Below are positions 1 to 10,351 of a stretch of 33,102 nucleotides of DNA, one piece after another (positions within the stretch are counted from its first letter, which is position 1; each line of letters opens with the position of its first letter). A program made the translations under genes and the position numbers. The DNA lies in NCBI GenBank assembly GCA_021846285.1, contig JAJZCB010000039.1:1-33102 (forward strand), read 5' to 3'. The DNA is from Bacillota bacterium. GTDB lineage: Bacteria; Bacillota; Bacilli; Alicyclobacillales; SLC66. The notes below the pieces were generated by a model. That model was not told the origin of the DNA and made no database searches. It was given only the letters and a program-made list of their open reading frames with translations.

Positions 1-670
1 ACAACTGTTCTTTGGCCTGCTCTTTGAAGTAGATCATGACGTTGCGACAAACAATAAGATCAAATCCGCTTTCATAAGGATCGGCCAGAAGGTCGTGAAT
101 ACCGAACCGAACGCGTTTTTTCACCGCATCGGAGACCATGTACTTCCCATTGTCGATTGAAAAATACTGAGCCAGCTTGGCAGCCGGAACATCCCTGACA
201 GACTGTTCTGTATAGGTAGCCAGTTTCGCCTTTGCGACCACGGATGGATCAAGGTCTGTCGCATAGACCTCCATATCCGCTAACCTAAACACGCCCGAGA
301 GTGCCAGCAATAGACTGTACGATTCTTCACCTGTAGAGCAGGCGGCGCTCCAGCACTTAATCTTTCGTGTATGAGTCAGGATATCAGGCGCAATCTGTTC
401 CACCAAAACTCTCCACCGTTCGGGGTTTCGATAGAACTCGGTCACATTAATAGTAAGTTGGTTCATGAATTCTCGGTAACCCTCATCATTTCTGTCAATA
501 GCCTTGAACAATTCTACAAAAGTAGGAAAACCCTTTCGAACCTTGAGGCTGGTTAATCTCCGTACAACTTGATCCTGCTTGTAGGAAAGAAGATCAAGTC
601 CAGTTTTAGCCTTAATCCGCCTTGCGAACTCAAGAAAATCCGCGTCCACAGCAATCGTCTGTAATCCCAC
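1..670 (-). CDS. cheR: Chemotaxis protein methyltransferase CheR (3' end off the window)
   Basis: CheR transfers methyl groups from SAM to glutamates of chemoreceptors, opposing the methylesterase CheB in adaptation. I translated this frame by hand from the minus strand. About 223 codons are present, and a usual length near 260 implies some 35 C-terminal residues are missing at the left edge. Visible signatures are the N-terminal helical domain, NVTEFYRNPERW near residue 75, the SAM-binding stretch SAACSTGEESYSL near residue 105, ATDLDPSVVAKA and DLIVCRNVMIYF. The GTG start at 670 is chosen because GAGGTGA lies 5 nt upstream; another in-frame GTG at 679 overlaps that site. It lies 15 bp after cheA, last visible gene of a MCP-cheW-cheA-cheR run. 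Confidence 0.95.
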   Translation of the reverse strand, partial: MGLQTIAVDADFLEFARRIKAKTGLDLLSYKQDQVVRRLTSLKVRKGFPTFVELFKAIDRNDEGYREFMNQLTINVTEFYRNPERWRVLVEQIAPDILTHTRKIKCWSAACSTGEESYSLLLALSGVFRLADMEVYATDLDPSVVAKAKLATYTEQSVRDVPAAKLAQYFSIDNGKYMVSDAVKKRVRFGIHDLLADPYESGFDLIVCRNVMIYFKEQAKEQL

Positions 671-685
671 TATACTCACCTCTTG

Positions 686-2695
686 TCACAAGCTAACTAC
701 AGTACTGCAAATCTTGGTGATATCCAATATGAGACCAACATGACCATCCCCAAGAATGGTGGCTCCGGCCACGCCATGGGTGTCTCCCACACGCTCCCCC
801 AAAGACTTCTTGACGATCTCCTGATTGCCGTGCAATTCATCCACAACGAGAGCAACCCGTTTCTGCGCAACTCCGACGATGACAACCTGTAGATATTTCT
901 TCGTCGTCGCGCTAACAGGGAGGTGAAAATAATCCCTCAAGTGAATCATGGGCATAACCCGCTCTCTCAAATAAATCACCGGAGTACCCTTTACAGACTG
1001 AATCGCTTCTGACTGGATACGTACAATTTCCAGAACACTGTTCATTGGAACCACAAACGTCTGATCGCCAACACCAACCAGCAACGCGGGAATAATGGCC
1101 AGAGTAAGAGGCAACTTGATGCGAAACGTTGTTCCTTTCCCTAACTCCGCATGGACGTCGATGGTACCGTTCAACTTTTCAATATGGTTGCGAACAATAT
1201 CCATTCCGACGCCACGGCCTGATATATCGGTGACCATCTTGGCTGTGGAGAAACCCGGTTTAAAAATCAAATTCACAGCTTCAAAGTCACTCATACGCTC
1301 AGCTTCCGATGGGGTAATCAACCCTTTATCAACGGCGGATTCCTTCATCTTGCTTGCGCTAATCCCCGCGCCGTCGTCTTTCACGGTAATCGCGACCCTG
1401 TTATCTTCATGAGCGGCAGACAGGTGCAAGATTCCTTTTGCAGGCTTGTTTAAGACCATCCGTTCGTCAGGAGACTCAATGCCATGGTCGACTGCATTTC
1501 GAATGAGGTGAATCAACGGGTCTGCAATTTCTTCGATCACAGTTCGATCCAGGCGGGTTTCCCGCCCTTCAAAAACCACCTCAACATCCTTGGCAAGCGT
1601 CTGCGACAAGTCGCGCACAATACGGGGAAATCGGTCAAACAAGGATTCAATAGGCAACATCCGGGCCATCATCACATTTTCTTGCAACTGGGCCACGACG
1701 TGAGAAACGTGCGCGGAAATGTCGGACAGAGTGCGAACTTGTTCATCACCTTTGTAGCGCATGCTAAAAGTCCGCTGTATCCGGGCGATTCGCGCTTGGT
1801 CAATGACCAGTTCGCCGACCAGATTCATCAAGGTTTCAAGCTGCTCGACATCAACCCTGACACTGTGGGATTTTTTGCGTTTTGTAGGGAACCGCGCCAT
1901 ACTCGCATCCGATTGTTCTGCGCTCCCCGGAACGTCATCGAGCGCCATGTCGATGGGATGCACCGATACACTCTCAAAGTCGCTCGTGAATACCAAATTG
2001 TGCACAGCAGACTCATCCAGCGTCGTCAATAAAACCATACGGAAAGAAGACAATGCGCTATCTTCCATATCCTCTATTTCGTCAAGGCGAGGGGAGATTG
2101 TGATAATCTCCCCGACGCCCTGTAGACTATTGGTTACCACATAGGCCCTGGCGCCCCGCATCACTGTTATGGAACTAAACTTGGCGTGGATGTCATAGAG
2201 ATGAAGACCTTTCTGTAATCCTTCGATCGCTTTTTGCCGCGCTGCTGCGTCGAACTCTACAGATTCATCCTCTTGAACCGGTAAATTCTCCTTGGGCAAA
2301 TTCTCTCCGGCGACAAATTGACGTAACTCATCCAACAGAGGCATGATGTCCGCCGGTGCTTGCCGTTCCCCGGAAATTAACCCCTCCTGCAAAGCCTTCA
2401 AGCCATCGAAGCACTGAAACAAGAGTCGGATCATGTCCGGCGACACACGAAGACGATGGCTCCGCACTTCGTCCATGACCTGTTCCATCTCATGAGTGAG
2501 TTGCTTCATTTCCTCAAAGCCCATGGCTGCAGAAGAACCTTTCAAGGTATGAGCGGCGCGGAACAAGTTCTGGATGGTTCCATCATCGTTCCCGTTCTTC
2601 TCAAGCTCCAATATCTGTTGCTCCATTTGCAATAGTTGCTCATCCAACTCTTCGAGGAAGGCATTCATAAAATCAGAAACGTTCAATGCATACAC
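686..2695 (-). CDS. cheA: Chemotaxis histidine kinase CheA
   Basis: CheA is the autophosphorylating kinase of the chemoreceptor array and passes phosphate to CheY/CheB. The 669-residue product has the full P1-P5 layout: an Hpt domain (about 1-110) with phosphorylatable His49 in RAAHTLKGSS, a P2 response-regulator docking domain (about 165-250), a dimerisation helix pair starting near VDVEQLETLMNLVGELV, an HATPase with N box LIRNAVDHGIE, G1 DDGAGI and G2 GRGVGMDIV, and a C-terminal CheW-like P5 domain. All catalytic motifs look intact. The frame opens with GTG at 2695, but AGGGAG directly precedes it, so the TTG three codons later is a plausible start. The gene is 12 bp downstream of cheW. Confidence 0.96.
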   Translation of the reverse strand: MYALNVSDFMNAFLEELDEQLLQMEQQILELEKNGNDDGTIQNLFRAAHTLKGSSAAMGFEEMKQLTHEMEQVMDEVRSHRLRVSPDMIRLLFQCFDGLKALQEGLISGERQAPADIMPLLDELRQFVAGENLPKENLPVQEDESVEFDAAARQKAIEGLQKGLHLYDIHAKFSSITVMRGARAYVVTNSLQGVGEIITISPRLDEIEDMEDSALSSFRMVLLTTLDESAVHNLVFTSDFESVSVHPIDMALDDVPGSAEQSDASMARFPTKRKKSHSVRVDVEQLETLMNLVGELVIDQARIARIQRTFSMRYKGDEQVRTLSDISAHVSHVVAQLQENVMMARMLPIESLFDRFPRIVRDLSQTLAKDVEVVFEGRETRLDRTVIEEIADPLIHLIRNAVDHGIESPDERMVLNKPAKGILHLSAAHEDNRVAITVKDDGAGISASKMKESAVDKGLITPSEAERMSDFEAVNLIFKPGFSTAKMVTDISGRGVGMDIVRNHIEKLNGTIDVHAELGKGTTFRIKLPLTLAIIPALLVGVGDQTFVVPMNSVLEIVRIQSEAIQSVKGTPVIYLRERVMPMIHLRDYFHLPVSATTKKYLQVVIVGVAQKRVALVVDELHGNQEIVKKSLGERVGDTHGVAGATILGDGHVGLILDITKICSTVVSL

Positions 2696-2707: not shown

Positions 2708-3118
2708 TTAATCCTTAAGCAATGCTTCCACGTTTAAAATGCTCACCAGCATATCGCCCTTGTGGCCGATTCCACCCAAGACCGAATCGACGCCGTCTTT
2801 GTTTTCGGGAGGAGGTTGCACGTCTGCGAATGAGAGAACCTGATGAACACTGTCCACGATCATCCCGATCACACCGTCACGGTCATTCACCACCACGATA
2901 CGAGTTGCCTTGGTATATTCCTCATCCGGCATCCCCAGACACTCCCGCAGGCTGACCACGGCGATGATTTGTCCGCGCAGGTTGATCACGCCCCGTACAA
3001 ACCTTCTGCTGTTCGGTATATGAGCGATCTCCTGCATACGGATAATCTCGTGGATTTCAAGAATTGGTATCGCATAGGTCTCCTTGCCAATTCGAACGCC
3101 CACATACTGTTCGACCAT
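2708..3118 (-). CDS. cheW: Chemotaxis coupling protein CheW
   Basis: CheW bridges chemoreceptors and CheA. The 136-residue product is a single CheW domain: VGVRIGKETYAIPILEIHEIIRM at the start, then HIPNSRRFVRGVINLRGQ, a highly typical CheW stretch, and VVNDRDGVIGMIVDSVHQVL toward the end. Length is normal for the family. The ATG at 3118 is preceded by GAGGAG at a good distance. It lies between the receptor gene (29-bp gap) and cheA (12-bp gap) in the same direction, so the three proteins probably form one dedicated array. Confidence 0.96.
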   Translation of the reverse strand: MVEQYVGVRIGKETYAIPILEIHEIIRMQEIAHIPNSRRFVRGVINLRGQIIAVVSLRECLGMPDEEYTKATRIVVVNDRDGVIGMIVDSVHQVLSFADVQPPPENKDGVDSVLGGIGHKGDMLVSILNVEALLKD

Positions 3119-3147: not shown

Positions 3148-4746
3148 TCAGCTGATCTTGAATACCGCAACATATTCATTTAATTGTTGGGCCAGCTGAG
3201 CCAGCGTTTGAGAAGAAGACGCGGTTTCTTCACTGCTTGCCGCCGATTCTTCAGCCGCAGCCGCGATGGTTTCAATTGACGCTAATACTTCTGAAGACTG
3301 GGCGGCCTGTTGTTCGCTCGCTGCCGCTATTTCGGTTACCTTAGCGGAAGTTTCGGTGACCATGGATACAATGCCTTCAAAGGCATGGCCGCTTTTCTGA
3401 GACAGTTCAGCACCCTCATGAACGGCCTGAACACTCGACCTGGTATTTTCCTGCATGGTTTTAATGATGGTTGTGATTTGCTTGGTCGCTTCGCCGGAAC
3501 GTTCCGCCAATTTGCGGACTTCGTCGGCAACAACCGCAAATCCACGCCCTTGGTCGCCGGCGCGCGCCGCTTCAATAGCGGCATTCAAGGCCAACAGGTT
3601 CGTCTGATCGGCAATGTCGTCAATGACTTCAACGATCTCGCCGACGCGATTGGAGTCCTCACTTAACCGCCTCATATGATCGCTAATGATATTCATACCC
3701 TGCACGGCGGACCTCACGACATCCCCGCCGCTATGGGCAAGATCCGTTGTTTTTCCGGACAGTTCCGCAGCTTGTTCGGCGTTTTTGGCAACAGACATGA
3801 TGGCTGCCGATAATTCTTTAAATAACTGGTTCACCGTCTCACTGGATTCGGCCTGCGAGCTGCTCCCACTTGCAATCTGCTCGGTGGCAGCCGAAATTTC
3901 CTGTGCAGCCGCCGCCACCTGATCGGACATTTGCGAAACGCCTCCGATCAGGTGCTTGAGTTGCTTGACCATAGCATTTGTCGCAACCATCAAGTCGGCA
4001 ACTTCGTCTTTCGATGTTGGTTTGAGTTCTTCCACTCCAAGGTCCCCACCGGCAATTTTTACAGATACGTCCCGGACGGTCCGAATCGATTTGCTCATTC
4101 TCGTCGACAGAAACCAAGCGATGCCAATGCCAAACATGGTTGCGATTAGACCCATAATCAGAAGGAAAGTATGACTGGAAGCAACCGCTTGCACCACGTG
4201 ATGTGAGGTGGCTTTCGCTCCTTGTTCATTCAGGGTGATGAGTGGATCTAAATCTGACTGGACCTTGTTGAAATCCACACTGGCGTTCTTAAACAGTTGG
4301 ATCGCCCGGCTTGTGTTCCCCTGTTGGCTGGCCTGAATAATCGCCGGTATTTGACTGACATAAGCATTCCAATCGCGGCGAAGCACCGCGTACGACGAGA
4401 GTTCACCGGAATGCTTGGCTGCATCGCTCGCAATAATCGACTTATAGCTGGCCTGCCGTTGTTTTTCTTTGAGCAGAGCCGCGTTCAAATCCGACTTTAA
4501 TGTTTTCGGATTGTACACATTCTTCGTCAATGCGAATTTTTCCAGTATGTCATCCACCTTCCACGTAACAGCGTGGATAGATCCGACCTCAATGGCGCTG
4601 GGCATCCATTCGCTGTCGATCGTCTTTGCGCCCAAGCCCATGCTGTCCATGTTCACGATAGAAACGACACTGATCAGAATCAGCAGAAAAATCATAACAC
4701 CAAAGGAACCAATCAACTTTGCTTGAATATTGAATTTCAATCTCAC
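3148..4746 (-). CDS. Methyl-accepting chemotaxis protein
   Basis: This is a transmembrane chemoreceptor of 532 residues. TM1 is at about 10-33, followed by a periplasm-like extracellular helical sensor of roughly 155 residues (four-helix-bundle type), TM2 at about 188-210, a HAMP domain and the cytoplasmic coiled-coil signalling domain. The conserved hairpin tip reads [20 protein letters not shown], preceded by [20 protein letters not shown]. The C-terminus lacks an NWETF-like CheR tether. The start is GTG at 4746 with GAGAGGGGAA upstream. The ligand cannot be told from sequence. Its position directly before cheW-cheA-cheR suggests it is the cognate receptor, and the upstream GGDEF-EAL gene is 113 bp away on the same strand. 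Confidence 0.94.
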
Positions 4747-4859: not shown

Positions 4860-6812
4860 CTAACTTCTCTCCAACGCTTCCTGCGTTTGCAAGTATCTTT
4901 GCGCAAAGGATTCTGCGGATACGGGAGGACTAAAAAAGTAACCTTGATATTCGTCACACTCCGTTTGTCCGAGTACGGCGAGTTGCTGCTCTCGTTCAAC
5001 CCCTTCTGCAATCACCTTCAATCGCCGAGAATGGGCCAGTGTTATCACTGCCGATACGATCGACGCATCTTCATAGTTGCGATCCAATTCCCGCACGAAA
5101 ATCTCGTCCACTTTGAGAACGTCCACCGGAAACTGCTTCAAAAAACCCAACGAGCTATATCCGCGTCCAAAATCATCAACGAAGATTTTAATCCCCAAAT
5201 CCTTCAGTTCTTTCAACTTCATCAGCGTATTTCGTTCATTTTTCATCAGCGCGGATTCTGTGATTTCAATGGCGATCAACTGAGGAGAAACGTTCATGTA
5301 GGCAAGAATCGAATGAAACCGCTGCACAAAATGATCGTTGCCCATTTCAACTGGCGACACATTGACTGCTATGGGAACGAGGTGTTTCCCTAAGCTTCTC
5401 CATTCTTCAATCTGACGGCATGCTTCTTTAAGCACGTATTCACCCAGCTGTTCTATCAGGCCCGTTTCTTCCGCCAGCGGAATAAATTCACCGGGAGGCA
5501 TCACCCCGATGACCGGGTGGCGCCAGCGTATCAACGCTTCCGCACTCACGACCGTTCCGCTCGTCACATCGACCTGAGGTTGGTATTCCAAAAACAGTTC
5601 GTCGTCTCTCAACGCCTTGCGAAGATCGTTTTCCAGACGAAATCGCTCATAGGCATGTTTGTGCAACGAGGGCATTTGAATTTGAAATCTGTTCTTTCCG
5701 CGCCTCTTTGCCTCGTACATCGCCGTGTCAGCGTTCCTGAGCAAATCCGCCGAGGACTCACCGCTGACAGGATACACCGCGATGCCGATGCTGGACGTCA
5801 AATAAAACTCGTACCCATCAAAGGCGATGCAATCCTGAACCACGCGCAGGATTCTCTCCGCCACTTCTTCCGCCTCGGTGACGTGTTCGATGTGGGGGAG
5901 AAGCACGGCAAACTCATCGCCGCCGAACCGAGCCACAACGCCCCCCTCCCTCACACAACGCGACATACGCTTCGCGACAATTCTAAGCACATCATCTCCG
6001 ACATCATGCCCAAGCGCGTCATTGATGTACTTAAATCGATCGAGGTCAACGAACAGGACAGCCAGTTTCCCCTCGCCTTCCTGAGCTCGCGCCAATGCAC
6101 GATCCAATTGGTCAGAAAAAAGTCTGCGATTGGGCAGCTCGGTCAGATGATCATGATGAGCCAAACTCCAAACTCTCTGTTCAGCCTCACGCTGCTCCGT
6201 GATATCTTTTGCGATTATGTAGATTCCTGTGACCACATCACCTTGATAGATGGGTACAGCATTCTCAATGACATGGATAATTCGTCCATCCCTGCAAACC
6301 AAGGTGTTTTCATACTCCTGCGCCTCACCCTGCAATGCCTTTGCAAAGAACGTATGTGATTTCTCTTGACCGATGAGAGTCGTGGCCGTTTGACGGTCCA
6401 TCTGTTCTATTTCTTTCGAAGAATATCCCAGCATTCGTTCAGTTGCGTGGTTCATGTTCACTATTTCCCCATTTGCGTCCAAAGCGATGATCGAATTCGA
6501 GTTATGTAAGAACAGCGACAAAAACTCGTTTTCCTTGTCGTGCAAACTGTTCAAGTATTGTCGCTGCCGCCTCAACTGGCGAATGATCCAACTGAATAGA
6601 ATCGGCGTGCTGATGAGAAGCATCCAAACTACATGAACCACCCGTTCCCAAGCCGTGTTAGATTCCCAGATGTGGCCGGATACCCATCGCCCCACGACTT
6701 GATATCCAAAGGCTTCAACGACCAATTCCAGGACAAACACGGTTATAAACATTCGTACATACACACTTTTCGGCAGACCAACCCGAACATCCCTCGTTGA
6801 TATCAAAGGCAC
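4860..6812 (-). CDS. Membrane PAS-GGDEF-EAL cyclic-di-GMP turnover protein
   Basis: The 650-residue product has two N-terminal membrane helices (about 18-40 and 55-75), a PAS domain (about 90-200), a GGDEF domain with intact RFGGDEFAV, and an EAL domain with EALIRWRHP, AVNVSP, EITESAL, DDFGRGYSSL, LKVDEIF and AEGVE. Both catalytic sites look complete, so it may make or degrade c-di-GMP. The allosteric I-site (RxxD before GGDEF) reads REGG, so product inhibition is probably lost. The GTG start at 6812 has AAAGGGTGG upstream. It lies downstream of a c-di-GMP-I riboswitch and upstream of the chemosensory genes. The net activity cannot be predicted. Confidence 0.93.
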   Translation of the reverse strand: MPLISTRDVRVGLPKSVYVRMFITVFVLELVVEAFGYQVVGRWVSGHIWESNTAWERVVHVVWMLLISTPILFSWIIRQLRRQRQYLNSLHDKENEFLSLFLHNSNSIIALDANGEIVNMNHATERMLGYSSKEIEQMDRQTATTLIGQEKSHTFFAKALQGEAQEYENTLVCRDGRIIHVIENAVPIYQGDVVTGIYIIAKDITEQREAEQRVWSLAHHDHLTELPNRRLFSDQLDRALARAQEGEGKLAVLFVDLDRFKYINDALGHDVGDDVLRIVAKRMSRCVREGGVVARFGGDEFAVLLPHIEHVTEAEEVAERILRVVQDCIAFDGYEFYLTSSIGIAVYPVSGESSADLLRNADTAMYEAKRRGKNRFQIQMPSLHKHAYERFRLENDLRKALRDDELFLEYQPQVDVTSGTVVSAEALIRWRHPVIGVMPPGEFIPLAEETGLIEQLGEYVLKEACRQIEEWRSLGKHLVPIAVNVSPVEMGNDHFVQRFHSILAYMNVSPQLIAIEITESALMKNERNTLMKLKELKDLGIKIFVDDFGRGYSSLGFLKQFPVDVLKVDEIFVRELDRNYEDASIVSAVITLAHSRRLKVIAEGVEREQQLAVLGQTECDEYQGYFFSPPVSAESFAQRYLQTQEALERS

Positions 6813-7111
6813 AACCCACCCTTTTTGATATTGACCGTTCCAACTGTACTCCTCTTTTCAAGGCTCCCCACACAGAAGACTTTCCCTTTCGTCATTGTCC
6901 GCCTTCCACGTTCACTGTGTGCAATGAAGACCCTGTCAAATAAGACGTGTTCCTGTATTTCAAACACGCGCTTTTCAAGCGGATTGTTACATTTTCCCAA
7001 CTCACTCACGATACCCCGGGGTAAAGAGTTACGGTGAGTCAATGCGGATGATTTCTGTTTTGACACATTTGTGCACAACAGAAAGGGCATCCAAAAACCG
7101 GTTACCCTTCT
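6813..7111 (-). other. Long leader between riboswitch and GGDEF-EAL gene
   Basis: About 300 nt separate the aptamer from the GGDEF-EAL start. It contains a GAAGGG/CCCTTTC inverted repeat (7081-7110 region) and a second nested palindrome with ACTCAC/GTGAGT arms around CCCCGGGG (about 7001-7039). Neither is followed by a T run, so I see no classical intrinsic terminator. One frame stays open from the ATG at 7117 to 6803, overlapping the downstream start, but it has no convincing ribosome binding site and resembles no family I know. Confidence 0.5.
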
Positions 7112-7194
7112 TACCATGGCAACTCGGCAGTCCTAGGCTCCGCCCGTAGACCCGCAGCTTTGCGCCCCGTCGTTTCCGATACGGTTTGCCTTTA
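7112..7194 (-). ncRNA. Cyclic-di-GMP-I (GEMM-I) riboswitch aptamer
   Basis: On the minus strand the order is AAAGGCAAACC, a GAAA-tetraloop hairpin (TATCGGAAACGAC), GCGCAAAGC, GGGTCTACGG, GCCTAGGACTGCC and GAGTTGCC. These are the conserved landmarks of the GEMM-I c-di-GMP aptamer in the correct order and spacing; GGCAA near the 5' end pairs with TTGCC at the 3' end to close P1. It stands upstream of a c-di-GMP-metabolising GGDEF-EAL gene and a chemotaxis operon, which fits the known biology of this class. The expression platform is not obvious. Confidence 0.93.
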
Positions 7195-7239
7195 TCCTCT
7201 TTAGAATTGTTCGATATTTTCCAATAAAAAAACACATAT

Positions 7240-7256
7240 TTCGACATATTTCGACA
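7240..7256 (-). promoter_or_regulatory. Two tandem Spo0A-type (0A) boxes
   Basis: TGTCGAA occurs twice on the minus strand (7250-7256 and 7240-7246), exactly 10 bp apart, each matching the 0A-box core TGNCGAA. One-turn spacing on the same face is what tandem Spo0A binding would need. They lie just downstream of the candidate -10 box, across the expected start of transcription, a position that would favour repression. Binding itself is inference. Confidence 0.5.
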
Positions 7257-7262
7257 TATAAA

Positions 7263-7291
7263 GGTATATCTCATCTTTGTTCGCTTGTCAA
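7263..7291 (-). promoter_or_regulatory. Candidate sigma-A promoter of the riboswitch/GGDEF-EAL/chemotaxis transcript
   Basis: On the minus strand a perfect TTGACA (7286-7291) is separated by 17 bp from TATACC (7263-7268). Transcription would begin near 7256 and place the GEMM-I aptamer about 60 nt into the RNA. Confidence 0.55.
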
Positions 7292-7334: not shown

Positions 7335-7364
7335 GAGAACGCCTCTCAAATGAGAAGCGTTCTC
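7335..7364 (-). terminator. Strong hairpin after the YjcZ-like gene
   Basis: GAGAACGC (7335-7342) pairs with GCGTTCTC (7357-7364), and TCTC pairs with GAGA inside, closed by an AAAT loop. It begins 7 nt after the stop codon of the small gene, so a terminator or mRNA-stabilising hairpin is likely. No clear T tract follows on either strand. Confidence 0.6.
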
Positions 7365-7371
7365 CAAAAGC

Positions 7372-7488
7372 TTAATAAACCGGCACAGTCGTGCACTTTG
7401 TCGTGCACACGGGAATGAGCAAGAAGAACAGTACGAAAATGATCAAAAACACGACGGCCCACTGCGTATACCCGCCAAAACAACCCAT
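7372..7488 (-). CDS. Small YjcZ-like membrane protein (38 aa)
   Basis: A short frame encodes 38 residues beginning MGCFGGYTQWAVVFL, then a hydrophobic segment IIFVLFFLLIPV and a cysteine/threonine tail ending TTVPVY. A Gly/aromatic-rich N-terminus followed by one hydrophobic helix is the pattern of YjcZ-type sporulation peptides of Bacillales. The assignment rests on pattern, not on a database hit. GGGGTGA lies 6 nt before the ATG and a strong hairpin follows the stop, so it looks like a complete monocistronic gene. The two or three cysteines (residues 3, 28, 32) are less usual for YjcZ members. Role unknown; it probably sits in a membrane. Confidence 0.6.
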   Translation of the reverse strand: MGCFGGYTQWAVVFLIIFVLFFLLIPVCTTKCTTVPVY

Positions 7489-7861
7489 TAGACGTCACCC
7501 CTTTGCATTTTGATATCAATTTATGGTGGGATGTCACTTCATGCAGGGGACAGACGGTACGCGTCAAATGCCTTATTTCGTTCAGGCATCCGCAATCGAA
7601 CTCGTGCGTTAGCACTGACTGGCAGTTGCGAATATTGACATTCCGTGTCGAATGGGATAGTTTGAAATTGAATTTACCAAGACTACTCTCAGATACATAT
7701 TCTATGCAATTCCCTACTCGAAGTCGAACAAACTGTGAATAGGCTGTTAAAGTAGTAACTGAACGAGTATTTCCTTGCTTTCCGTCGCTGCACGGGTGCC
7801 CATATTAATCCGCCCCCGCAATGCACCGCTCGACTCAGTGATAAAAAGGGGTCACGGGACT
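7489..7861. other. Intergenic region between divergent YjcZ-like and PAS-GGDEF-EAL genes
   Basis: This 373-bp gap holds a candidate plus-strand promoter (7635-7663), a 6-bp hairpin ATGCCT/AGGCAT (7569-7589) and otherwise no gene or RNA that I recognise. I looked specifically for a second GEMM-I motif on the plus strand and found none. Confidence 0.5.
7635..7663 (+). promoter_or_regulatory. Candidate promoter with an internal Spo0A-type box
   Basis: TTGACA (7635-7640) lies 17 bp from TAGTTT (7658-7663), a weak -10. The spacer contains TGTCGAA (7646-7652), a match to the 0A-box core. It would give a leader of about 190 nt for the PAS-GGDEF-EAL gene. The weak -10 keeps confidence low. Confidence 0.35.
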
Positions 7862-10351
7862 ATGACGACTAAACGTAGACTACAGAGTGTAATCCGGGGG
7901 ATCGCCCCCCAGCGTTCCCAGGAATTCATGATGGTTGAGTATTTTCGGACGCTTTTCACGCATTTTCCCGAGGCGATTTTTCTCAAAGACGGACAGGGCC
8001 GCTGGCAAGCGATCAATCGGGCGGCCATGCAACTGTTTGATCTAGACGCCACGAAACCGTGGCGCGACTATACGGATAGGCAGTTGGGCGGACTCTACCC
8101 CAACCTGCAAACGAGCTTTGAGGTCTGCGCGGCGAGTGATGAGCGCACGTGGCACGCTCGACGCGAAACGCAGGGTTTTGAACAGGTGACGGATGCCACA
8201 GGCGGTGTCCATATGCTCGCAGTGCGTAAAATCCCCTGCTTTCATCCGGATGGAGCACGCAAAGCCTTGATGGTCATAGCAAGGGAGATCAAGTCCCCGC
8301 ACCGCCCGGAAGAACGCTTGCAGCAACGTCAGGAAGAACTGGAGACGATTCTGGATGCAACCAGTACGGCGATTTGGTACAAGGACAAGACTCATAAGTT
8401 CTTGCAGGCGAACCGAGCCGCATGCACATTAATTGGGAGAGACAAACGCGATATCGTTGGCCATCTTGATGCAGAGATTTTCCCTAATCATGTTCACCAG
8501 CACCGGGAAGCGGAACATCAAGTCATGGTCACTCAACGATCGGTTTGGGACAGGATCGAAAAATTGGTACTGCCCACGGGACACACCGTCGATGTCGAAG
8601 TCGATCGGGTGCCCTACTGGCGCGGTTCGGATGTGGTCGGAGTAATCGTCTTCGCGAGGGATATCACCGAACGGCTAAGAATCGAGACCGCCTTACGGGC
8701 CAGCGAAGAACGTTATCGGACTATTTTGGCGGAAATCAAAGATGGCTATTTTGAAGTGGATCTTGATGGCAACCTACTGTTTTTTAATCGAGCTTCGGTC
8801 GACATCCTTGGCTATTCCGAGGAAGAAATGTCCGGCCTGAATAATCATCAGTATACCGACCCCGAAAATGCCCGCGCAGTTTATCAGGTTTTCAATCAAG
8901 TGTACCGTACCGGCATTCCTCTTTCGGCGGAGTGGCAAATCATCCGGAAAGATGGAACGCCCCGATATCTGGACGCTTCAATCTCTCTGATGCAGGATGA
9001 ACAAAATCGTCCGATAGGGTTTCGCGGCATTGCCCGCGACATTACGGAACGCAAGGAAAGTGAAGTACGGCTCCACTTCTTGGCCCATCATGACGTCTTG
9101 ACGAGCCTCCCCAACCGCTCGCTTGTGATGGATCGATTGACGTTGGCGCTGACATCGGCTCGACAGCAACGTCATAGATTAGCGGTCCTGTTCCTCGATT
9201 TAGATCGGTTTAAAAACGTGAATGACACATTGGGTCACGTTGTGGGCGATCAATTATTACAGGGCGTTGCCCAACGTCTTCAAGCTAGTCTTAGGGCCCA
9301 GGATATGGTGGCCAGAATGGGAGGAGATGAATTTCTTATTCTGCTGTCTTCGGTCACCCGTAAGGAGGAAGTGTCCGAGGTTGCAAGGAGGATTTTGGAA
9401 CAATTGCAAGATTCGTGGTTGTTGCAAGGTGGGGAATTTCGGTGCCCGGGCAGTATCGGAATCGCACTGTTTCCCGACCATGGTGAAGATGCCGGCACTC
9501 TGCTCAAGCATGCGGACATTGCCATGTACCATGCCAAAGAGGCGGGAGGGAACACCTATGTTCTCTACCAATCCGGGATGAATCTGCAAACCAATGAATA
9601 TGTCCTATTGGACGCGCAATTACATCAGGCACTGGAGCGCCGCGAATTTGTCCTCCACTACCAGCCGCAAGTCGATGCCCGGACTGGAAGGATCCGCGGC
9701 GTTGAGGCCCTGGTGCGTTGGAATCGTCCCGGATTGGGCCTGGTTTTGCCCCGCGACTTTATCGGGTTTGCTGAAGACAGCGGACTGATCATCCCTATCG
9801 GGGAACAGGTATTGTACGAGGCGTGTCGCCAAGCGAAAGCTTGGCAGAACTCCGGCAATTCACTGACGAAGATGGCAGTAAATCTGTCCGCACGACAGTT
9901 TCAACAACACAATATTGTGGATCTCATTGCACGGGTCTTGCAGGAGACCGGTGTTCCTCCAGATCGGCTTGAGATTGAAATCACCGAGAGCGTTGCCATG
10001 CAGAAAGTTCCCTATACCATGCACGTTCTTCATGCCCTGCGCGCCCTAGGCATCTCCGTGGTTTTGGATGATTTCGGGATCGGCTTTTCCTCCTTGAGCT
10101 ACCTAAAGGACTTTCCGATTACCGCCCTCAAGATCGACCAATCTTTTGTACGCGACATGCTTCAATCCCCCAAGAACTGCGCTATCATCAAAACTGTGAT
10201 CGAATTAGCCGAGAACTTCGGTCTCCAGACGATTGCCGAGGGGGTGGAATCACAAGAACAGATGACCCGTTTATGCGAACTGGGTTGTTGCATCATGCAA
10301 GGCTACTATTTTTCCCGCCCCGCACCTCCGACCGGAAGAGTCGTTTTGTAA
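7862..10351 (+). CDS. Soluble PAS-PAS-PAS-GGDEF-EAL cyclic-di-GMP protein
   Basis: The 829-residue product has no membrane helix. Three PAS domains (about 18-140, 155-275 and 275-395) are each recognisable by stretches such as PEAIFLKDGQGRW, TAIWYKDKTHKFLQANRA and EERYRTILAEIKDGYFEVD. Then come a GGDEF domain with ARMGGDEFLI and an EAL domain with VEALVRWNRP, AVNLSARQF, EITESVAM, DDFGIGFSSL and AEGVES. The I-site RAQD is intact, unlike its neighbour at 4860-6812, so feedback inhibition may persist. I use the ATG at 7862 (AAGGGG 10 nt upstream) rather than an earlier in-frame codon at 7775. It is transcribed away from the riboswitch-controlled operon. Confidence 0.93.
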   Translation: MTTKRRLQSVIRGIAPQRSQEFMMVEYFRTLFTHFPEAIFLKDGQGRWQAINRAAMQLFDLDATKPWRDYTDRQLGGLYPNLQTSFEVCAASDERTWHARRETQGFEQVTDATGGVHMLAVRKIPCFHPDGARKALMVIAREIKSPHRPEERLQQRQEELETILDATSTAIWYKDKTHKFLQANRAACTLIGRDKRDIVGHLDAEIFPNHVHQHREAEHQVMVTQRSVWDRIEKLVLPTGHTVDVEVDRVPYWRGSDVVGVIVFARDITERLRIETALRASEERYRTILAEIKDGYFEVDLDGNLLFFNRASVDILGYSEEEMSGLNNHQYTDPENARAVYQVFNQVYRTGIPLSAEWQIIRKDGTPRYLDASISLMQDEQNRPIGFRGIARDITERKESEVRLHFLAHHDVLTSLPNRSLVMDRLTLALTSARQQRHRLAVLFLDLDRFKNVNDTLGHVVGDQLLQGVAQRLQASLRAQDMVARMGGDEFLILLSSVTRKEEVSEVARRILEQLQDSWLLQGGEFRCPGSIGIALFPDHGEDAGTLLKHADIAMYHAKEAGGNTYVLYQSGMNLQTNEYVLLDAQLHQALERREFVLHYQPQVDARTGRIRGVEALVRWNRPGLGLVLPRDFIGFAEDSGLIIPIGEQVLYEACRQAKAWQNSGNSLTKMAVNLSARQFQQHNIVDLIARVLQETGVPPDRLEIEITESVAMQKVPYTMHVLHALRALGISVVLDDFGIGFSSLSYLKDFPITALKIDQSFVRDMLQSPKNCAIIKTVIELAENFGLQTIAEGVESQEQMTRLCELGCCIMQGYYFSRPAPPTGRVVL

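Follow-up and report, generated by a model that had tools for sequence, protein, structure and literature searches.

Gene content of the locus

The window, i.e., the whole stretch of DNA that was analysed (33,102 nt), carries on its minus strand a c-di-GMP-I (GEMM-I) riboswitch aptamer followed by genes for a PAS-GGDEF-EAL protein, a methyl-accepting chemotaxis protein (MCP), CheW, CheA, and CheR (Table 1). The intergenic gaps, in the order GGDEF-EAL/MCP/CheW/CheA/CheR, are short, at 113, 29, 12, and 6 nt. Because the window is an entire contig, CheR is incomplete; in a sister genome (G002; contig JAJZEE010000059.1, from a Bacillota metagenome bin), the same genes continue into CheR and then CheB, and no CheY was seen in that cluster. 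The GGDEF-EAL protein is 94% identical between the window and the sister, and alignment with solved GGDEF-EAL chains shows its GGDEF and EAL signature residues to be intact; the protein is predicted to make or break c-di-GMP. A sequence scan of the 113 nt between the GGDEF-EAL and MCP genes (4859-4747) found no minus-strand promoter-like or terminator-like site, and polycistronic transcription from the aptamer through the che genes appears probable.

Table 1. Features of the riboswitch and chemosensory cluster in the window.
Feature	Position	Strand	Basis
PAS-GGDEF-EAL protein	4860..6812	-	Pfam; alignment with solved GGDEF-EAL chains
MCP (4HB-HAMP-MCP)	3148..4746	-	Pfam
CheW	2708..3118	-	Pfam
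CheA (Hpt-P2-dimerisation-HATPase-CheW)	686..2695	-	Pfam
CheR, partial at contig end	about 1..679	-	Pfam
Promoter-like site TTGACA-17-TATACC	7263..7291	-	Read from sequence; imperfect -10
c-di-GMP-I (GEMM-I) riboswitch aptamer	7115..7200	-	RF01051, full length
Terminator-like hairpin T	7085..7145 (core 7127-7098)	-	Predicted folds and terminator scores, both species; shuffles
U-rich tail UUUCUGUUG after T	7076..7084	-	Sequence
Alternative hairpin T2, candidate antiterminator state	7085..7107	-	P1-constrained folds; scores
210-nt leader stretch	6851..7060	-	Alignment; missing from sister
Ribosome-binding-site-like AAGGGTGGG	6815..6823	-	Sequence; before GTG 6812 / TTG 6806

A second CheA/MCP/CheW set is encoded elsewhere in the same genome (contig C133), and the window cluster is absent from a congener (G001); thus, we regard the window array as accessory. 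Window and sister together supply it with its own MCP, CheA, CheW, CheR, and CheB, besides the other CheA/CheW system. A first-pass annotation had proposed the gene order GGDEF-EAL, MCP, cheW, cheA, cheR in one direction, with which the Pfam assignments and minus-strand open reading frames (ORFs) agree, and had called the chemosensory array "dedicated", a reasonable description given the second CheA/CheW system on C133. The genome also encodes flagellin, FliG, and pilus-type ATPases.

The GEMM-I aptamer and its putative promoter

The Rfam model for the c-di-GMP-I (GEMM-I) class (RF01051) matches the minus strand at 7200-7115 over its full length (model positions 1-87 of 87), scoring 64.6 bits where the gathering threshold is 35 (E 1.2e-10), and the sister aptamer scores 66.6 bits; in an Rfam scan of the whole window, RF01051 is the only family above its gathering score. 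P2 is capped by a GNRA loop (GAAA), and the GGCAAAC and CGCAAA joints are common to the window aptamer and 21 other aptamers. The leader precedes GGDEF-EAL and che genes, a context of c-di-GMP turnover, motility, and surface functions associated with GEMM-I. The element is a genuine GEMM-I riboswitch, one more member of a well-known class. The window aptamer keeps a G at the position that we take to be G20 of Vc2, which is compatible with c-di-GMP, rather than c-GAMP, as the expected ligand.

Upstream, TTGACA (7291-7286) and TATACC (7268-7263) are separated by 17 nt, and both hexamers are identical in the sister. This site was missing from a consensus promoter scan because its -10 hexamer lacks the final T. 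The first-pass annotation had placed a GEMM-I aptamer behind a TTGACA-type promoter on the minus strand; the covariance search recovers the former and the hexamers above account for the latter. The c-di-GMP link that it proposed is likewise supported.

Several other features lie around the promoter-like site. An inverted repeat, GAGAACGCTTCTCATTTGAGAGGCGTTCTC, is located upstream at 7335-7364; in the sister, A-to-G and T-to-C changes on opposite arms preserve the pair (GAGGACGC...GCGTCCTC), and a search of the genus gave one further near match only (3 mismatches), in G002. It is possibly an operator or an RNA hairpin. Just 3' of the -10 hexamer, at 7234-7253, there is a perfect tandem 10-mer (two copies of ACATATTTCG, plus strand), partly degraded in the sister. 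Across the intergenic region lies a second, divergent multi-PAS GGDEF-EAL gene (7775-10351, plus strand), and in the sister a 491-aa methyltransferase-like gene is situated between this gene and the riboswitch.

Seven GEMM-I aptamers occur in this genome (G000), and all 18 genomes in a survey of the family carry at least one. By eye and from translations, other GEMM-I aptamers in the genome and family stand before two-component kinases and cell-wall or exopolysaccharide genes, as well as before PAS-GGDEF proteins (L115, L117, and L131), while one is followed by an EAL protein (L110) and another by a CheR-like gene (L121). Several other GEMM-I loci in the family have downstream hairpins that are separate from the aptamer; sorting 35 family platforms automatically into ON and OFF types was too noisy to yield counts. 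In the family genome G013, a GEMM-I element (L114:1501-1589) before a histidine-kinase-like gene has A instead of the first G of GGCAAA, and may be a c-GAMP-type aptamer outside Geobacter.

Predicted expression platform

The first-pass annotation described neither an expression platform after the aptamer nor a direction of switching, both of which we add here. The 5' arm of the terminator-like hairpin T is the 3' half of the aptamer, such that T and P1 are mutually exclusive in the predicted folds. In the T core, CCG-A-GUUGCC (7127-7118) pairs with GGUAACCGG (7106-7098), followed by U5 at 7097-7093, whereas a longer form (7145-7085) is followed by UUUCUGUUG. The C at 7127, which by our own alignment we take to be the ligand-pairing C92 of Vc2, would be paired in T. 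The alternative hairpin T2 is compatible with P1 (P1-constrained folds) and also precedes U-rich sequence.

Aptamer and platform are identical between window and sister at 116 of 121 bases, which makes the two too alike for real covariation evidence. The sister T arms are GGUAAUCGG and GAUGCUC, followed by UUUUUGUUG, with the hairpin preserved via G-U or shifted pairs; the C-to-T species differences in the 3' arm of T (7101 and 7086) keep the pairing in predicted folds. At transcript lengths of 106-113, the T fold beats the P1 fold by 5.9-6.2 kcal/mol in the window and by 4.4-5.4 kcal/mol in the sister. From length 122, once T2 is complete, the two folds come within about 1 kcal/mol of each other, as expected for a switch that is tipped by its ligand.

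Terminator scores (d'Aubenton-Carafa formula) were -0.2 (window) and +8.1 (sister) for T, and -4.0 (window) and about -8 (sister) for T2; other riboswitches of the same genome scored +4 to +24, compared with -0.2 for T in the window, which by this measure is weak as a terminator. Dinucleotide shuffles of the downstream bases reached the T score in 15/1000 cases for the window and 10/1000 for the sister, and an earlier shuffle test of the short T core alone gave 50/3000 and 158/3000, respectively. Since T excludes the ligand-bound fold, an ON switch by antitermination is predicted. The folds and scores lend moderate support to T as the platform of such a switch, and ON polarity is the better-supported reading, with fairly good odds.

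Leader and gene start

Between the platform and the GGDEF-EAL gene lies a 210-nt stretch (7060-6851) present in this genome alone. It is single-copy in the genus, with no other copy among the 59 genomes of the order (58 besides its own), and its fold is no better than that of shuffles (z 0.61); together with the lack of convincing terminal repeats, this led us to reject a repeat or mobile element. No outgroup carrying the locus was found, so that insertion in one species and deletion in the other are indistinguishable for this stretch. Rfam gave no second known RNA in the leader at E below 0.9. Inside the species-specific stretch, at 6971-6935, CGTGTTTGAAATACAGGAACACG with TCTTATTT behind it looks by eye like a weak intrinsic terminator; it is absent from the sister.

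An ORF that starts in the last bases of the aptamer (7117-6803, 104 aa) was rejected as a gene, having no Pfam match and being interrupted by the species-specific stretch; its shared part differs from the sister by three non-synonymous and two synonymous changes (counted by eye). The GTG start (6812) is GCG in the sister, which conserves the TTG (window 6806) and has an ATG after it; hence, the true start of the GGDEF-EAL gene may be TTG 6806, which leaves the overall reading unaffected. A hairpin that would sequester the ribosome-binding site (ATCAAAAAGG...CCTTTGAT) was noticed by eye and is kept in the sister, but it is weak and was not relied on.

Recurrence in other Bacillota

With a covariance model based on 22 aptamers, we searched 80 loci that had been retrieved by their relationship to the GGDEF-EAL protein; besides the sister, this gave 13 hits, all on the same strand as the gene. 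Nine of the 13 are no more than 1.5 kb upstream of the point where the GGDEF-EAL match begins (Metabacillus, Paenibacillus, Ammoniphilus, Bacillus, and Cytobacillus); in seven of these nine the first in-frame start is within 150 nt of the aptamer, and it is farther away in Ammoniphilus and P. contaminans. In Bacillus solitudinis, a c-di-AMP (ydaO) riboswitch lies on the opposite strand, approximately 270 nt from the GEMM-I element preceding the GGDEF-EAL gene (L039:6920-7064 and 7336-7418).

In Aquibacillus saliphilus (L092) and Sediminibacillus massiliensis (L095), the aptamer (74.6 and 65.9 bits with Rfam, respectively) is followed in one direction by genes for CheX, CheA, CheW, CheY, MCP, further proteins, PAS-GGDEF-EAL, and CheR (domains by Pfam, mainly in L092; CheY of L092 from its translation). 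These clusters share with the window a GEMM-I element, MCP, CheW, CheA, CheR, and PAS-GGDEF-EAL in a single direction, but differ from it in gene order, in the presence of CheX and CheY, in a dCache domain on the GGDEF-EAL protein, and in having terminator-like hairpins that are separate from the aptamer and downstream of it. Their CheA proteins are 36-37% identical to that of the window, so either the association is ancient or it has had more than one origin. We tentatively propose, at somewhat less than even odds, that accessory chemosensory arrays with a GGDEF-EAL protein under GEMM-I control could be a recurrent module of Bacillota, in which lineages differ in gene order and perhaps also in switch polarity, and in which c-di-GMP would set the abundance of an array whose own operon can change c-di-GMP. 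A literature search of titles and abstracts, restricted to papers available without subscription, found no report of a GEMM-I element heading a che and GGDEF-EAL operon, which is weak evidence of novelty; the operon context is apparently recurrent but little described.

Comparison with known systems

The predicted platform resembles that of pilM in Geobacter metallireducens, an ON switch with mutually exclusive terminator and aptamer, in which the ligand-pairing C75 becomes part of the terminator (PMC9262584). Common to both would be a terminator built from the aptamer's own 3' strand and its ligand-pairing C, with transcriptional ON logic; unlike the window, for which ON polarity is predicted and c-di-GMP expected, pilM senses c-GAMP and has different genes (PMC9262584). 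Cd1 of Clostridioides difficile belongs to the same aptamer class and likewise acts by transcriptional control, but it is an OFF switch, in contrast to the ON polarity predicted here, and its terminator is able to coexist with the aptamer (PMC9262584). In the Bacillus cereus group, Bc1 is a GEMM-I element before an MCP gene, as in this Bacillota genome, and has reportedly activated reporter expression in B. subtilis; it has two downstream terminators 28 bp apart, whereas in the window the GGDEF-EAL gene comes first with a whole che cluster behind it (PMC11218506). Bc1 of B. thuringiensis further shows that having an intact aptamer and terminators does not guarantee a response in vivo (PMC11218506).

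Proposed mechanism and alternatives

We propose (probability roughly 0.6) that the GEMM-I element acts in cis on the PAS-GGDEF-EAL and accessory chemosensory operon, where it would most likely serve to switch transcription on. Transcription would start near 7250, and the aptamer would be made first. Without ligand, 7107-7085 would base-pair with the aptamer's 3' half, taking in the C that we match to Vc2 C92; the resulting hairpin T would stop transcription near 7080. When c-di-GMP is bound, P1 would be held closed, T blocked, and T2 folded instead; read-through would then proceed into the genes for GGDEF-EAL, MCP, CheW, CheA, CheR, and CheB, such that high c-di-GMP would increase both the predicted c-di-GMP-forming or -degrading enzyme and the sensory array. 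The aptamer, the gene set, and the mutually exclusive folds in two species are the computed part of this scheme; the physiological role of the link between riboswitch and operon is our interpretation.

The opposite polarity would follow if T2 (7107-7085, then the U-rich tail) were the terminator and the T core the antiterminator: c-di-GMP would stabilise P1, free T2, and stop transcription, as in Cd1. T2 is indeed compatible with P1 and has that tail behind it, and non-overlapping downstream hairpins occur at several other GEMM-I loci of the family. Yet T2 scores below T in both species and U5 directly ends the T core, and we consider an OFF switch unlikely.

The aptamer might instead be ineffective here if the 210-nt stretch carried its own promoter or otherwise uncoupled the gene, for which the absence of the stretch from the sister and the precedent of Bc1, an unresponsive GEMM-I element with a long expression platform (PMC11218506), could be cited. 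Given that aptamer and platform are nearly unchanged between the species, and that the stretch contains neither a good sigma-70-like promoter nor an unusual fold, we regard this as very unlikely. Alternatively, the riboswitch might control the GGDEF-EAL gene only, with MCP-CheW-CheA-CheR(-CheB) forming a separate unit that starts in the gap at 4859-4747, the longest in the cluster. Against this stand the lack of promoter- or terminator-like sites in the scan of that gap and the arrangement in Aquibacillus and Sediminibacillus, where che genes rather than GGDEF-EAL come first after the riboswitch, so that the GEMM-I association includes the che genes; a split of this kind seems improbable.

Implications

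Of the new points, the recurrence in several genera is the most useful. Its occurrence in distant ones opens the link to testing by comparison. An ON-type platform beside sibling platforms of other types in one genome would offer a natural comparison of switch polarity. If the proposed mechanism is true, it is probably c-di-GMP that determines whether an entire sensory array gets built, and the operon under the control of this second messenger also encodes an enzyme predicted to change c-di-GMP.
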